Source: Macrococcus sp. 19Msa1099
GTDB lineage: Bacteria; Bacillota; Bacilli; Staphylococcales; Staphylococcaceae
DNA: 64,000 bases
Assembly: GCA_019357535.2 (NCBI GenBank)
Contig: CP079955.1
Location: 1,426,001 to 1,490,000, forward strand
Reading direction: 5' to 3'
Shown here: piece after piece, positions 47,999 through 60,575 of the stretch
Layout of the letters: each line of letters opens with the position of its first letter
Numbering within the stretch: position 1 is the stretch's first letter
Made by a program: the position numbers and the translations under genes
The notes under the pieces: generated by a model
Database searches by the model: none
What the model was told of the DNA's origin: nothing
What the model saw: only the letters and a program-made list of their open reading frames with translations

Positions 47999-48847
47999 TT
48001 AAAATTTTATTTTTTCATAAGCTTCATACTCTTCCACTTTTAAAATCTGTTTCATTTTGTTTATGTTGTCTTCAATCTGAGTAAATACATTGCTTTGAAT
48101 CGTTCTGCCTGCAACTTCTACTGTATGTTCACACAAACTTCTTTGTCTGATAATGTGTACAAATTTACAGTTGATACGTTTAAGCTTATTCGATTCTGAT
48201 GTGCTTAGTGTTGATCTAATCAACCAAATCCTTTTGAACTTGTATTTTTCTAATGTTAGATTATCTATAACAGCTTTAATCATATCGTTTACCATTTCGA
48301 TTGAATCATATGCATTTAGAGTTCTATCATGAATTGGTTTAAATGTCATTGTTGAGATTATTTCGTCCATATCTATAACTATGTCTTTCTCTTTATCACA
48401 GTTATTATAAACAAAGGTACTCTTACCACTTCCAGGCAATCCAACAACGACTATTACATGATTCTTAGTACTTGTATGAAGGCCCTTCTTTGTCTTGGTA
48501 TGCTCTTGGTTGTGACATGCACTGCACACAGTCTCTAGGTTGTTCATGTCTAGTCTCAGTGACCAGTCATCCTTAAGCTCTACTATGTGATGCACTATGT
48601 TGCCAAAGGTTGTAATGCCCTGACGTTTACATTGCTGACATAAATAGAAGTCACGTTGAAGTACAGCAGCTCTAACATCTTTCCATTGCTTCGAGTTATA
48701 GAAGCTTACCTCTTGCTGGTCTGTACGTTCACGATCATAATCCTTATGTTTCTGTTTAGCAGTATCACTATGTACCTCACAGTATCTCCCACTCGTAGTT
48801 CTACTGCATCCAGGATAAGCACATACACTCTCAGACTTGCTCGCCAT
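47999..48847 (-). CDS. HNH endonuclease fused to a P-loop kinase-like domain
   Basis: 282 residues from ATG 48847 (MASKSESVCAYPGCS; GGTGG upstream). Part 1 (~8-115) is an HNH nuclease with C9/C14, C70-x2-C73, HH86-87 and C108-x2-C111. Part 2 (~128-282) is a P-loop domain: Walker A GLPGSGKST (136-144), VIDMDE (~157-162) and an arginine-rich late region, like AAA_33/polynucleotide kinase folds. HNH proteins next to terS help terminase cut cos. The kinase half is an unusual addition. Confidence 0.88.
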   Translation of the reverse strand: MASKSESVCAYPGCSRTTSGRYCEVHSDTAKQKHKDYDRERTDQQEVSFYNSKQWKDVRAAVLQRDFYLCQQCKRQGITTFGNIVHHIVELKDDWSLRLDMNNLETVCSACHNQEHTKTKKGLHTSTKNHVIVVVGLPGSGKSTFVYNNCDKEKDIVIDMDEIISTMTFKPIHDRTLNAYDSIEMVNDMIKAVIDNLTLEKYKFKRIWLIRSTLSTSESNKLKRINCKFVHIIRQRSLCEHTVEVAGRTIQSNVFTQIEDNINKMKQILKVEEYEAYEKIKF

Positions 48848-48953
48848 TGCTTCACCACCAAATAAAAAGGACACAAGCATATAGCCCGCGCCCTTGATAT
48901 ATTTCTCTACAATATAATATTACCACGTTCTAATCATAAAAGTGTTCATTTTT

Positions 48954-48986
48954 TGTTCGTGAAAAGTTCGCGAAAAGTTCGTTAAA
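48954..48986. repeat. three tandem 11-bp repeats upstream of the late genes
   Basis: TGTTCGTGAAA, AGTTCGCGAAA, AGTTCGTTAAA, head to tail. They lie upstream of the HNH-terS-terL operon, with AT-rich -10-like sequence (TATTAT/TATATT) following on the minus strand. Probable binding sites for the late activator (ArpU/RinA type). Confidence 0.6.
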
Positions 48987-48992
48987 ATATAT

Positions 48993-49787
48993 TTAGTTTA
49001 ACTTAATTAAAGAAATATAATACTTTGTTTGATGATTAACATGTTTATCTATTTTACTTTTTACTGTATTTGTAGTACCAACTATTAAATGAATATTATC
49101 TACCTCTATCTGATCAGAAGTTCTATGATTTTTTTCGTAATCATATAATTTGTAAAGTAGCATAATCAAAATATCTAATCCTTCAATTATTTCATTTGAG
49201 TTATCAACTTTATTTATATTATCAGATATATGTATTGCTTCCTTAATATTTTTTGTATTACTTATTATATTGTCTATTACATCCAATAATTTAGCAGCCA
49301 CTATTTTATTATCGTTAAACTGTAAATCTATTTTTCTTATTGTTTGATATAAGTCCTCTATTTCTTTTCTAAGATAAATATTATTTTCCTTCAAAGTATT
49401 TGTAACTAATTCTACCTTCATTCTATCATCATCTAATTTATTCTGATTTTTAAAAAATTCCTTTTGTTGTTTCATATCTTTCATAAATTGTATATGTTGT
49501 TTTTCCATTTGGTTTTGCAATTGCTTCTCTTGGTATTTATATTGAAACCAGGTAACCGATATTAAACCTAGCAATCCTATAATATTTCCACCATAAGAAG
49601 CCCAGAATGATAACCATTCTATATTTCCTGTTCCTGATAAAGGACTAGGAATGACTTTCATTAAAACGACTACGAATAAAGGAAACAGTATTGCCACAAT
49701 CAAGACTATCAATATTAGAATATGATTATTTGAAATTTTCTCGTCAGACTTCTCTTCTTTAATATTTTTTTCGCTATCATTTTCCAT
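48993..49787 (-). CDS. two-TM coiled-coil membrane protein, prophage cargo
   Basis: 264 residues, no recognised family. Acidic/basic cytoplasmic start, hydrophobic spans at ~23-45 and ~63-82 (NIIGLLGLISVTWFQYKY), then coiled coil (~85-140) and a helical C-terminal domain. The layout of paired membrane helices and cytoplasmic helical domain resembles several phage-exclusion proteins, but that is inference only. AT-rich. It shares a 171-base operator region with the divergent gene at 49959. Confidence 0.7.
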   Translation of the reverse strand: MENDSEKNIKEEKSDEKISNNHILILIVLIVAILFPLFVVVLMKVIPSPLSGTGNIEWLSFWASYGGNIIGLLGLISVTWFQYKYQEKQLQNQMEKQHIQFMKDMKQQKEFFKNQNKLDDDRMKVELVTNTLKENNIYLRKEIEDLYQTIRKIDLQFNDNKIVAAKLLDVIDNIISNTKNIKEAIHISDNINKVDNSNEIIEGLDILIMLLYKLYDYEKNHRTSDQIEVDNIHLIVGTTNTVKSKIDKHVNHQTKYYISLIKLN

Positions 49788-49823
49788 ATAAATTATTCAC
49801 CTTTCAGTTATTCATATCTAATA

Positions 49824-49932
49824 TTGTGTATAACTCACAAACATATTATAACCCTTTATATATCAATACTTCCACAAGTTTTCTGAAAATTAGTTATACA
49901 TGGTTTATTTATGTATAACTCTGTACTATAAT
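49824..49932. promoter_or_regulatory. divergent operator/promoter region of the cargo locus
   Basis: Contains a perfect 10-bp inverted repeat AGTTATACAT/ATGTATAACT (49892-49920, 9-base gap), a third half-site TGTATAACT (49827-49835), and an overlapping inverted TTGTG/CACAA (49824-49840). TATAAT at 49927-49932 serves the plus-strand genes, with the inverted repeat covering the -35 zone. A dedicated regulator is implied; none is encoded beside it unless one of the cargo proteins does it. Confidence 0.6.
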
Positions 49933-49958
49933 AAAGTAAAAATCTGTGAGGTAATGTT

Positions 49959-50405
49959 ATGCCACATAACTTAGATTTAAATGATTTAGATGACTTAACA
50001 ATCCATAACTTAATTAAAGAATTGAAAGATAGAAATAATATAATTGATCCTAATATACTTCAATCTCACTTTGGTCGTGTTGATGAAAGGTGTTCTATTT
50101 TAAGTGATAATAACAAAATAGAATATACTTTAAAAATTTACAGAGGCAATAGAGAGCCAGAAAGATTTACCGTCTACATTTTTTTTAAAGAAACTAAACA
50201 TTGCTTAGTAAGAATCGATACACAAGCAGGCAGACATGTGAATCCAGATGGTAGTCTAGCACCCAAATCTCATATGCATATATACGATAATAGATATGAA
50301 AAAAAAGATTCTGTTGGTATACCTATCGATATAAAAAATTTTCCGGTGGTCGATAATCTTTTTGATGTGTATAAGAGTTTTTTAAAGTATACTAATATTA
50401 AATAA
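49959..50405 (+). CDS. DUF6978-like protein, first gene of cargo pair
   Basis: 148 residues; begins with an acidic stretch (LDLNDLDDLTIHNLIKEL). The core TLKIYRGNREPERFTVYIFFKE followed by LVRIDTQAGRHVNPDGSLAPKSHMHIYDNRYEKK resembles the small DUF6978-type proteins, with conserved H/N/D/R in its centre. The family name is from memory and unchecked. No membrane span. 24 bases before the next gene, so a two-gene operon. Confidence 0.65.
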   Translation: MPHNLDLNDLDDLTIHNLIKELKDRNNIIDPNILQSHFGRVDERCSILSDNNKIEYTLKIYRGNREPERFTVYIFFKETKHCLVRIDTQAGRHVNPDGSLAPKSHMHIYDNRYEKKDSVGIPIDIKNFPVVDNLFDVYKSFLKYTNIK

Positions 50406-50428
50406 TTCATTTGAAAGGAGGTACGTCA

Positions 50429-51220
50429 ATGCTAAAAGCAGATGTATTAAAGAAAGATTATATTGAATGGTTTTCAAAGAAAATTGAATTTAAAAATCTT
50501 GAAGAGAACTTAGTTAGAATTGACGTACCTTTCCAAGACAACATGAATGATGATATAGTTTTTTATGCTGAACTAGATAGCAATACAGACACTATTATAT
50601 TAACTGATGATGGCTATACATTATTCAACTTAGAATCTTCAGGCTTAAATATAAAAGGCAGCAAAAGAAGAAAGAAAATCTTCTTTGATAATCTAAGTTC
50701 TTATGGTGTAAACTTTAATCAAAAAACCGAAGAAATATATACTACTTGTAAAATAAAAGAATTTAGCGAAGTTAAACATAGATTCCTGCAATGTTTAATT
50801 TTTGTGAATGATATGTATTTATTAAGTGAGGGTAATGTTAAGCATATTTTCGCTGAAGATGTTGAAAGAGTACTAGATAATAACGAAATAATTTATACTA
50901 AAGATTTAAGTATCATTGGTAGATCAGGTATGACTCATAAATTTGATTTCTTGATATCTTCAACAAAGAACAAACCTGAAAAGTTTATAAAAACTATATC
51001 AAGTCCGAATAACTCTATGGTTATCAAAGCTCTTGTAACTGATGTCAATCAAGCTAAATTAGTTAAAAGAGAAAAGCCGAATAAAATTATCGCTATATTA
51101 AATGATAAAGAAAAAGAAATATCAAGCTCATCTGAAAATCTTTTAGAGGATTCAGGAGTTTCATTTATTAAGTTTAAAGATCTTAATAAAAACATAGATT
51201 TATTGCGTAATAATGCATAA
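50429..51220 (+). CDS. DUF1828/DUF1829-like protein, second gene of cargo pair
   Basis: 263 residues from ATG 50429 behind AAAGGAGG. The N-terminal half has the DUF1828-type VRIDVPFQDNMNDDIVFYAE and IILTDDGYTLFNLESSG. The C-terminal half (HKFDFLISSTKNKPEKFIKTISSP, MVIKALVTDV, SGVSFIKFKDL) fits the DUF1829 label. D/K-containing strands in the second half recall restriction-nuclease folds, but no motif is complete. Ends inside a perfect palindromic terminator. Function unknown; defence or toxin-antitoxin role is a hypothesis. Confidence 0.68.
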   Translation: MLKADVLKKDYIEWFSKKIEFKNLEENLVRIDVPFQDNMNDDIVFYAELDSNTDTIILTDDGYTLFNLESSGLNIKGSKRRKKIFFDNLSSYGVNFNQKTEEIYTTCKIKEFSEVKHRFLQCLIFVNDMYLLSEGNVKHIFAEDVERVLDNNEIIYTKDLSIIGRSGMTHKFDFLISSTKNKPEKFIKTISSPNNSMVIKALVTDVNQAKLVKREKPNKIIAILNDKEKEISSSSENLLEDSGVSFIKFKDLNKNIDLLRNNA

Positions 51221-51246
51221 ACCCACAGTTTAAACTGTGGGTTTAT
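51217..51246. terminator. bidirectional terminator, perfect 30-bp palindrome
   Basis: ATAAACCCACAGTTT and its exact complement, between the converging cargo pair and recombinase gene. Confidence 0.85.
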
Positions 51247-51795
51247 TTAATATACAAATTCAAAGTTAGTCATAGCTTCATCAATGCTATCTTGTGTTAT
51301 TCCTATGTACTTCAATGTGATTGCTTCACTGCTATGATTAAATATCTTCTGCAGCGTAGCTACATCTTTCGTTCCTTTGTAATAATGATATCCAAATGTT
51401 TTTCGCATCGAGTGAGTACCGATTGATTCCAGGTCAAAATAATCTGTTAGATCTCTTAATATCTTATATGCCATATCTCTTGATATTGGTTTATTAAATC
51501 CCTGACGTGACTTTATAATAAATTCTTCAGGTGGTTTCCCTTTTATAAAATCATTGAGCGGTCCTTTTAAATTTTTATGGATTACTATCTTTCTTTGCTT
51601 ACCTGTCTTTTGTTCTCTTAACCTTATTGTGTTGCCTTGCACTGATGAAACCCTTAATTGTAGAATGTCTGATATTCTTAGCCCGCAATATATCCCGATA
51701 AGGAATAGTATATAGTTACGTTCATTCTTCTCTTTTAAATGTCTCTCAATCGCTTTTATCATATCTGGATTACGAATAGGTTCTACAAAGTTCAT
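51247..51795 (-). CDS. minimal tyrosine recombinase (second integrase-like gene)
   Basis: 182 residues, catalytic domain only. The full active-site set is present: R40 (CGLRISD), K64 region, H128-x2-R131 (THSMRKT), H154 (FNHSS) and Y163 (LKYIG). It lacks the arm- and core-binding N-terminal domains. Coupled (overlap at 51795) to the ArpU gene. Such proteins occur beside late regulators in Gram-positive phages; the reaction is unknown. Confidence 0.88.
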   Translation of the reverse strand: MNFVEPIRNPDMIKAIERHLKEKNERNYILFLIGIYCGLRISDILQLRVSSVQGNTIRLREQKTGKQRKIVIHKNLKGPLNDFIKGKPPEEFIIKSRQGFNKPISRDMAYKILRDLTDYFDLESIGTHSMRKTFGYHYYKGTKDVATLQKIFNHSSEAITLKYIGITQDSIDEAMTNFEFVY

Positions 51796-52244
51796 TACTC
51801 TGTCACCTCCGAATACTCTTCCATCCCTAAATAAAAAGCAAGTCGTATAATAGCATCATTCTTAATCTCATAGTACTTCGTCTTCCCTATACCTAATTCT
51901 GTATAAATATCAATATCTATACCTCGCTCTTCCTGTAGATACTTATTAACGATAATATACTTTTCATCAGGCTTTAGATTATCGATAGCATTGTGAAGAT
52001 TATCCATTAATTGCTGTCTTTCTAACATCATCTGCTCACGCTCAATATTTTTCGATACACTCAACTCAATCTTATTTAGATCCTTAACTGTCGTTGGTGG
52101 TTCTAAACTAAATGACTGAGTAACAGATGGATAACTTCTTACTGGCATTAGACAAAGTAATCTGTTGTATTTGTTAAATAGCTTGTATACATTCTTTCTT
52201 GTTTTGATAAAGTCCAGGTTCTTAATCTCTAATAATAAAGTCAT
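51795..52244 (-). CDS. ArpU/RinA-type late transcription regulator
   Basis: 149 residues with the C-terminal sigma-region-4-like HTH (KYLQEERGIDIDIYTELGIGKTKYYEIKNDAIIRLAFYLGM in outline) of the ArpU family. It is the last gene of the early/middle operon apart from the recombinase and the natural candidate to activate the late promoter at ~48.9 kb. Confidence 0.82.
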   Translation of the reverse strand: MTLLLEIKNLDFIKTRKNVYKLFNKYNRLLCLMPVRSYPSVTQSFSLEPPTTVKDLNKIELSVSKNIEREQMMLERQQLMDNLHNAIDNLKPDEKYIIVNKYLQEERGIDIDIYTELGIGKTKYYEIKNDAIIRLAFYLGMEEYSEVTE

Positions 52245-59813: not shown

Positions 59814-60044
59814 TTAAACTTTCTTATTACGTAAGTCTGATCCAAAAAAAATATCTTTTCCATCTTCAGGAGATAAATTCAATGCATAATATAATGCATT
59901 AATAGCTGGATATGAGGGCGCTGTTTTGTTGTTAATAATATTAGAAACTGTGTCACGATGCAATCCTGTCTCATTTGATAAGTCATTTATTGTCATACCA
60001 TGTAAAGCCATTTTAGATTTAAGTAAATTCGTATTTATAGTCAT
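59814..60044 (-). CDS. Cro-like XRE regulator
   Basis: 76 residues from ATG 60044 (MTINTNLLKSKMALHG). HTH MTINDLSNETGLHRDTVSNIINNK. First gene of the lytic direction, facing the repressor gene. TTACGTAAG operator-like copy near its 3' end. Confidence 0.88.
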   Translation of the reverse strand: MTINTNLLKSKMALHGMTINDLSNETGLHRDTVSNIINNKTAPSYPAINALYYALNLSPEDGKDIFFGSDLRNKKV

Positions 60045-60063
60045 TTTCACCACACCTTTCTCA

Positions 60064-60175
60064 ATACGTAAGTTAAGTATATATAAACACTAAAAAATTA
60101 GCAAGCATTTTACGTAAGTTTTTCCGTATAAAACTTAATTAATTAGTTGCGTATGCTGAAAGTATTCATTATAAT
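60064..60175. promoter_or_regulatory. immunity region: divergent promoters and operators
   Basis: Cro promoter (minus): TTGCTA 60104-60099, 17 bases, TATACT 60081-60076. cI promoter (plus): TTGCGT 60147-60152, 17 bases, TATAAT 60170-60175. TACGTAAG occurs near 60066 and 60111, with a relative TCCGTATAA at 60123 and another TTACGTAAG near 59830, probable repressor sites. Confidence 0.75.
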
Positions 60176-60197
60176 ACAATTAATAGGAGATGAGATT

Positions 60198-60575
60198 ATG
60201 ACTTTTTCAAAGCGATTAAAAATGGCTAGAGAAAATAAAGGTATCACACTAGCAGAATTAGGAAAGCTTATTAATAAAACTGAAGCAACAGTTCAACGTT
60301 ATGAAAGTGGTAATATTAAAAACTTAAAAAATGATACTATCGAATCAATCGCAAAAGCATTAAATATTAGCCCTTCTTTTTTAATGGGTTGGGACGATAA
60401 AGAGACTTCACAGTCAATCGATATAGTTAAAAATTTAGAAGAACAAGGAATAATCATAAACTTTGCAGATTACGAGGGATTTGAAAAACTTTCTGACGAA
60501 GAAAAATTAGAGTTCCAAAAGAAAATTGAAGAAGCAGTCCAATTCGAGTTATTTAAACGTAACCAAGGTAAGTAA
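60198..60575 (+). CDS. cI-like XRE repressor without S24 domain
   Basis: 125 residues from ATG 60198 (MTFSKRLKMARENKG; AGGAG). HTH (LAELGKLINKTEATVQRYESGN), then a short helical tail (to residue 125) with no S24 protease domain. It is paired with ImmA, so induction would be by ImmA cleavage rather than self-cleavage (ImmR-like). Confidence 0.9.
   Translation: MTFSKRLKMARENKGITLAELGKLINKTEATVQRYESGNIKNLKNDTIESIAKALNISPSFLMGWDDKETSQSIDIVKNLEEQGIIINFADYEGFEKLSDEEKLEFQKKIEEAVQFELFKRNQGK

Follow-up and report, generated by a model that had tools for sequence, protein, structure and literature searches.

Two-gene defense candidates carried by prophages are a known kind of element, and one family of them, PDC-M24, is catalogued in the PADLOC database; PDC stands for phage defense candidate, as given in the available passages of PMC12548924. 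In this report, we analyze a member of this family in a 64,000-nucleotide stretch of DNA from Macrococcus sp. 19Msa1099 (contig CP079955.1, positions 1,426,001 to 1,490,000; hereafter, the window). The member consists of two adjacent genes, here called gene A and gene B, whose proteins contain DUF6978 and DUF1828-DUF1829, respectively. In the open-licence literature, we found no paper mentioning PDC-M24 by name and, among the papers matching DUF1828, DUF1829, DUF6978, or PDC-M24, no functional study of this pair. DUF6978 was found in one paper, which in its accessible portion carries it only as an entry in a mutation table.

Among characterized systems, the nearest is DS-6 (HipAD), a validated defense system in which DS-6B (DUF3037 plus DUF1829) partners a HipA-like kinase; protection requires the kinase, and the authors propose a toxin-antitoxin (TA) mode (PMC13092281, in the passages on DS-6). 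In a similar HipA-DUF3037 pair, deletion of the DUF3037 gene is toxic and deletion of the kinase ends defense (PMC12548924, in the passages on that pair). As far as these excerpts go, HipAD (DS-6) and PDC-M66 resemble the window pair, as we interpret it, in being two-gene defense units with DUF1829 in the partner of the toxin. They differ in the other domains, which are the HipA kinase and DUF3037 in HipAD and PDC-M66, whereas in the window the partner is DUF6978 and the first domain is DUF1828; profile searches with the pair gave no DUF3037 or HipA match. Two toxin families are also relevant. TumE, of the TumE-TumA pair (DUF6516), blocks translation and is described in parts of PMC10584680 as a seven-stranded antiparallel sheet bearing two helices, with no confident match in the Protein Data Bank (PDB). 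Ntox24 is all-beta and also occurs in TA systems according to excerpts of PMC3482391, which give its conserved residues as Y, H, and H in a table and as a single histidine in the text. Regarding genomic setting, the P2 and P4 prophage defense hotspots are places of variable cargo in related phages (abstract of PMC9122126), and Tha of S. aureus phages is a prophage defense gene that an overlapping antisense gene silences upon induction (abstract of PMC11087260).

Our preferred interpretation, to which we assign a probability of roughly 0.6, is that the window pair is a TA-type abortive-infection module carried as a moron, with gene A as toxin and gene B as antitoxin/sensor. The two genes are as follows.

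49959-50405, plus strand: gene A, DUF6978 protein of 148 amino acids (aa), PDC-M24A, the proposed toxin; profile matches and structural model
50429-51220, plus strand: gene B, DUF1828-DUF1829 protein of 263 aa, PDC-M24B, the proposed antitoxin/sensor; profile matches and structural model

A first-pass annotation, made from the letters of the window, had joined these genes with a divergent 264-aa gene into one candidate undescribed defense or exclusion system. All three open reading frames (ORFs) lie where it had placed them in the ORF list, and the family names that it had suggested proved correct: the gene A protein belongs to DUF6978 (PF22398, 7.7e-29), and the gene B protein consists of DUF1828 (PF08861, 2.6e-21) followed by DUF1829 (PF08862, 1.4e-21). 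The same proteins match the PADLOC models PDLC04538 (PDC-M24A, 2.1e-19) and PDLC04539 (PDC-M24B, 1.9e-68), with the genes adjacent and on one strand. The pair is therefore a member of a catalogued family rather than undescribed, and its likeness to PDC-M24 is one of profile matches. Gene A is preceded by a GAGG ribosome-binding sequence and is separated from gene B by 23 bases (24 had been counted). The 263-aa form of gene B begins at an ATG with GGAGG upstream; the ORF list has 269 aa from an earlier TTG.

Gene A and gene B are kept together, and co-diverge, across Bacteria and Archaea, so that the conserved pairing on which the first-pass annotation had staked its reading does exist. DUF1829 lies downstream, on the same strand and within 1.5 kb, at 31 of 34 DUF6978 places (one broken gene is counted twice among the 34). 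At a 32nd place (L064), a diverged DUF1828-like gene overlaps DUF6978 by one base, and of the remaining two places, one is interrupted by four stops and the other is a 126-nucleotide fragment. Conversely, DUF6978 is found upstream at 30 of 42 DUF1829 places; among the 12 partnerless places are broken genes and unrelated proteins, and one lies at the edge of a contig. Three loci (L035, L042, and L077) carry an intact DUF1828-DUF1829 gene but have no DUF6978 match. The proposed toxin, in contrast, was not found intact without its partner in this small sample (32 of 34 places paired, the other two fragments). Such an asymmetry is expected if DUF6978 is toxic, although the numbers are small. When gene B was used as the query, both genes were present at 119 of 130 loci (the best 80 of 143 bacterial and archaeal genome loci plus 50 viral-contig loci), a count that is favored by a search profile built mostly from paired copies; of the other 11 loci, four start at the edge of a contig. 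Distances within one family correlate with those within the other, with r = 0.91 over 82 pairs, which remained of 104 after near-identical ones were dropped, compared with at most 0.18 in 1000 permutations. The distribution of the DUF6978 family is patchy: it was found in 18 of 108 genomes of the taxonomic family and 11 of 398 phylum-wide genomes, and the corresponding figures for DUF1829 are 22/108 and 15/398. The genes at L035 and L042, in two genomes of the taxonomic family, adjoin other chromosomal genes and are possibly orphan antitoxins. Three genomes (L332, L334, L335) and three viral contigs (L167-L169) carry the pair twice, with only a few kilobases between the copies.

The pair is present on prophages and on a satellite phage, and gene B also on nine plasmid records (the partner gene was not checked there). 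Two Staphylococcus phages, 37 and phiSP119-3, have the pair between their repressor and integrase genes, a usual location for lysogen-expressed genes. In at least 13 of 50 viral loci, phage 37 included, a tyrosine integrase similar to those of the two phages is found no more than 3 kb downstream of the pair; this is a lower bound, obtained with two integrase queries (from phages 37 and phiSP119-3). For the pair, the earlier suggestion of a TA-like defense candidate is thus supported by the PADLOC models, the conserved pairing, the proximity of integrases, and the presence of DUF1829 in a validated defense system, as reported in the passages cited above (PMC13092281).

The predicted structure of the gene A protein is confident (predicted local distance difference test score, pLDDT, 96.2) and has the form of a small alpha/beta protein, in which helices toward the two termini accompany seven strands of at least three residues. 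Its family conserves the motif R-x-D...H-x-N...H-x-H. In an alignment of 68 members (the window protein and 67 of 70 relatives chosen from 107 rows; L163 is identical to the window, and L117 and L121 were left out), H93 and N95 are kept in all 68, R85, H105, and H107 in 67, and D87 in 62; other kept residues are P96, D97, and Y109. In a profile comparison, R-x-D, H, and H-x-H align with their counterparts in TumE, with TumE H74, H84, and H86 (invariant among nine sequences) falling on gene A H93, H105, and H107. The fold described for TumE in the cited portions resembles the gene A model, which may share it. The gene order differs, because TumE is mostly downstream of its partner according to the same portions (PMC10584680), whereas DUF6978 is upstream in the window. 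The TumE profile matches one of the 68 aligned members, at 0.027, and does not match the window protein at E values up to 1. Ntox24 has a weak likeness to 6 of the 68 members (best, 7.5e-4) and no match to the window protein itself; searches of genomes gave two weak Ntox24 matches below the cut-off among 249 and none among 35, a number insufficient for comparing profiles. No solved structure was found for DUF6978 by sequence search. An OspA variant, the best VIA row for the gene A model (Z 5.5), was rejected as a common sheet arrangement.

The gene B protein was modeled with a pLDDT of 91.0 and a predicted template-modeling score of 0.62, the placing of its two domains being uncertain. As modeled, its N-terminal domain matches secretion chaperones and YbjN (ExsC, Spa15, CesT, YbjN; Z 6.9-8.5), and its C-terminal domain matches Cdn1, Can2, BstEII, Card1, EndoMS, and EcoRII (Z 7.7-10.7). 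The top C-domain matches are AF1548 (Z 11.1), Cdn1 (10.7), Can2 (10.3), and BstEII (10.2), with root-mean-square deviations of 3.0-3.8 over 110-126 aligned residues. We take these and the other nucleases among the C-domain matches to share the PD-(D/E)XK fold, which the modeled C domain therefore appears to have. The best Foldseek row for the whole protein is VC1899 (E 4.8e-5), and a sequence search against solved structures gave one chance-level match (E 0.13). In an alignment containing 59 of 60 chosen relatives (the 60 chosen from 130 rows), D173 is kept in 55 of 60 members and E184 in 58 of 60. The lysine of the PD-(D/E)XK motif is expected two residues after the E, where 58 of the 60 have I, L, F, or V. 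Because of these residues, the C domain seems to lack the standard nuclease site, and a shifted lysine is possible.

Four considerations lead us to regard DUF6978 as the toxin: its toxin-like residues, the asymmetry of the pairing, the presence of a chaperone-like domain in its partner, and the parallel with DS-6. In the lysogen, both proteins would be made and would sit in a complex, in which the DUF1828 chaperone-like domain would hold the DUF6978 protein. The DUF1829 domain, with a PD-(D/E)XK fold without the usual lysine, may bind nucleic acid for autoregulation or for infection sensing. A competing phage would disturb the complex and free the DUF6978 protein, which would stop growth, and the infection would abort. 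The attack would most likely be directed at RNA or translation and would proceed through the R-x-D...H-x-N...H-x-H site. The pair runs opposite to its phage's late operon, and opposing late transcription may switch it off on induction. That the window pair is expressed in the lysogen is something we infer, and its position at the late junction differs from the repressor-integrase position. A broader proposal, which we put forward tentatively and at somewhat less than even odds, is that such pairs constitute a separate TA superfamily of Bacteria and Archaea that serves as exchangeable prophage armament. Its toxin would act on RNA or translation and have a fold not yet in the PDB, and its antitoxin would combine a chaperone-like domain with a catalytically dead nuclease-fold domain for which nucleic acid is the infection signal.

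The pair lies at the junction between the regulatory and late genes of the prophage, beside the following genes.

51795-52244, minus strand: ArpU-type late regulator, 149 aa (TIGR01637, 2.2e-28)
51247-51795, minus strand: tyrosine recombinase, 182 aa (PF00589, 1.2e-22)
48993-49787, minus strand: membrane-type gene, 264 aa, separate slot-2 cargo outside the pair
47999-48880, minus strand: HNH and P-loop protein, the first shared gene after the cargo slots (PF01844, 4.7e-10; PF13671, 7.1e-8)

The viral collection contains related prophages that have either the recombinase or the ArpU gene, together with the terminase genes, in common with the window. For 15 of them and the window, we compared the interval from the recombinase (ArpU in four) to the HNH gene, whose presence was a selection criterion; L242, L243, and L247, whose recombinase is near-identical (94-98%) but whose terminase differs, were left out. 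The 15 junctions measure 653-2473 bp and have G+C contents of 0.26-0.28, and their genes differ between phages, with some shared. In these prophages, the late junction is a cargo slot with exchangeable AT-rich genes. Slot 1, which adjoins the recombinase, holds a 72- or 82-aa ORF in 10 of the 15 junctions and, in two prophages, the same pair as the window (~99.8% identical over 1.45 kb). Slot 2, which adjoins the HNH gene, holds one of many genes, namely the 264-aa gene in the window and a 145-aa or 300-aa gene in the two other pair-bearing prophages. Among the 70 loci L242-L311, 42 have a late-gene anchor (four being the near relatives L242, L243, L247, and L248). Their junctions measure 29 to 5470 bp, and seven are at most 150 bp long, so empty forms of the slot exist. 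In searches with other slot genes, PADLOC gave nothing better than E 0.012 for ten, and Pfam gave nothing above the cut-off for nine (best, a coiled-coil match at 4.2e-4), with the DUF6978 protein matching its own family as a control. The slot is like the P2 and P4 hotspots in its variable cargo, and differs in its place, between ArpU-recombinase and HNH-terminase, and in the putative nature of the defense role of its cargo. No earlier description of this slot was found in titles and abstract openings of the open-licence literature, among the matches listed. The junction comparison and the repressor-integrase position in the two Staphylococcus phages both support the view of the pair as moron cargo. 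The window's own genome has one copy of gene B, and a megablast search of a phage collection with positions 36001-60000 of the window found no similar phage DNA.

All three genes had been described as oriented against the late operon; the pair alone is reversed, and the 264-aa gene runs with the operon, on the minus strand like the ArpU, recombinase, HNH, and terminase genes. It has no match in either of the other pair-bearing prophages of the set, and a 34% relative is carried by two prophages that lack the pair (L233, L234). Because the pair occurs without this gene and a relative of the gene without the pair, it is separate slot-2 cargo and not part of the pair. Its protein has no Pfam or NCBIfam match above the cut-off and no PADLOC match (best PHROG, E 0.011), and its two transmembrane stretches and coiled coil were read from the letters rather than predicted by a tool. 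No relatives were found in phages, plasmids, or viral contigs, in searches that miss distant relatives such as those of L233 and L234. Weak relatives with a similar W-L-x-F-W stretch lie in two genomes of the same genus (L055, 1405-2145; L056, 1429-2385), and at L055, the gene before the relative looks by eye like a WYL-type regulator.

Several observations weigh against the TA-type interpretation. No published test of toxicity or phage protection was found for any member of the family. Foldseek, run against the PDB and BFVD (viral proteins), gave nothing below E 0.001 for the gene A model, and the TumE-DUF6978 profile score is weak (P 0.013-0.017, probability ~3%, with 3 of 150 column-shuffled profiles scoring as high). 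In gene B, the chaperone-like Z values fall in the range that the tool calls a common arrangement, Rab-type GTPases also match the C domain (Z 6.4-6.9), and Foldseek template-modeling scores are low (0.31 for the best row). Also, the DUF1829 that gene B has in common with DS-6B is, in the portion of PMC13092281 on that protein, the label given by the paper. With PADLOC at 1e-10, the 138 neighbors of 20 paired loci matched 137 models, against 14 for 140 control proteins; of the 25 neighbor models shown, however, 20 are one-member methyltransferases, and the PADLOC output does not count proteins, so we draw nothing from the difference. Some Staphylococcus copies adjoin smpB (4 of the 138 neighbors) or leukocidin-family genes, which are not clear defense islands. 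The first-pass annotation had named a home mainly in core operons with a housekeeping role as speaking against its reading; some copies do lie near smpB, but the family is patchy in its distribution.

The gene B results could also mean that the roles are reversed, with gene B encoding the effector, an atypical PD-(D/E)XK nuclease, and DUF6978 serving as its inhibitor or sensor. The likeness of the C domain to CRISPR-related defense nucleases (Can2, Card1, Cdn1) and restriction enzymes, at Z 7.7-10.7, favors this arrangement, as does the retention of D173 and E184. We nevertheless consider it unlikely, because I, L, F, or V occupies the lysine position and it is gene B, not DUF6978, that occurs intact without its partner; were gene B toxic and gene A the antidote, the TA reading would stay. 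A TA pair of the same anatomy might instead act in addiction, stabilizing a prophage or island and playing no part in defense, as might suit the occurrence of the pair on prophages and a satellite phage, of gene B on plasmids, and of some copies near smpB. The PADLOC listing as a defense candidate and the presence of other cargo in the slot of other prophages point away from this explanation without being decisive, and we judge it improbable. The original proposal of a three-gene exclusion system with the membrane protein as effector is largely refuted and retains very little probability. Its basis was that, in the window, the genes diverge from a common set of inverted repeats, but the three genes do not travel together: both other pair-bearing prophages lack the membrane gene, two pair-less prophages carry a 34% relative of it, and the repeats persist when the cargo is different. 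Under the preferred interpretation, in which DUF6978 is the toxin of an abortive-infection module, a large group of proteins annotated without function would gain one testable role. The analysis also separates the pair from a chance neighbor, proposes a concrete division of roles between two proteins with named conserved residues, and describes a cargo slot in which further uncharacterized genes collect.

The noncoding features of the locus are as follows.

49800-49936, no strand assigned: conserved platform element between the two cargo slots, ~137 bp, with dyad 1, TTATAAT, and dyad 2
49892-49920, no strand assigned: dyad 1, AGTTATACAT-N9-ATGTATAACT, with 10-bp perfect arms, overlapping the -35 position of the pair
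49806-49835, no strand assigned: dyad 2, AGTTATTCA-N12-TGTATAACT, directly upstream of the slot-2 gene
49927-49932, plus strand: candidate -10 of the pair, a perfect TATAAT by consensus match only, with no good -35 hexamer
51217-51246, no strand assigned: 30-bp perfect palindrome where the pair and the recombinase gene converge; it travels with the pair and is a candidate bidirectional terminator

The inverted repeats had been attributed to a promoter region of the cargo genes' own. The repeats are real but not private, in that the region is kept in 14 of the 15 related junctions whatever the cargo. The platform element is 84-94% identical in 12 pair-less junctions and lies inside a >99% identical stretch that the window has in common with the two other pair-bearing junctions; the fifteenth junction (L232) keeps 56 bp around dyad 1. 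Dyad 1 is kept with small changes in junctions that hold other cargo, and TGTATAACT has three exact copies in the 64 kb, all at the cargo locus. Because the element is kept with other cargo, it belongs to the slot and not to the pair, and it probably acts as a promoter region for both the slot-2 gene and the late operon. The TATAAT of the pair sits at the edge of the element and, in an alignment of 16 junctions, is seen in all three that bear the pair (the window's and two others) and in none of the remaining 13. Two further roles were considered and rejected. Dyad 1 as an operator of the prophage repressor is contradicted by its retention with other cargo and by the lack of another copy in the window at up to three mismatches, including at 59814-60575, where repressor-like genes were read by eye. 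Because two dyads bound the element, we also considered an invertible promoter driven by the neighboring recombinase, but the segment between the dyads has the same orientation in all 15 junctions that keep it, window included.

The AT-richness of the three-ORF stretch was confirmed (G+C content 0.26 versus 0.352 for the whole window), and no stretch of that length in the window is as low (0 of 618, in steps of 100 bases). The palindrome at 51217-51246, which overlaps the gene B stop codon, is perfect as had been noted and has a folding energy of -21.2 kcal/mol (z -6.05). Its designation as a terminator is less certain, because it has no strong T-run and is missing from the list of the terminator scan; an Rfam scan gave a single sub-threshold match over it (26.1 bits, with 55 needed).

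Three observations concern the neighboring late genes. The P-loop domain of the HNH protein, which starts the packaging genes, matches AAA_33 at 7.1e-8 and zeta-toxin at 0.0033, below the cut-off. Upstream of the HNH gene, positions 48955-48987 contain three tandem 11-bp repeats, GTTCG(T/C)(G/T)AAAA, most of which fall within ~100 bp showing 73-89% conservation across the related junctions, and these repeats are possibly a regulator site of the late operon. The short tyrosine recombinase, which adjoins ArpU and borders the cargo slot, has 229 relatives in viral contigs, of which the best 80 were used.

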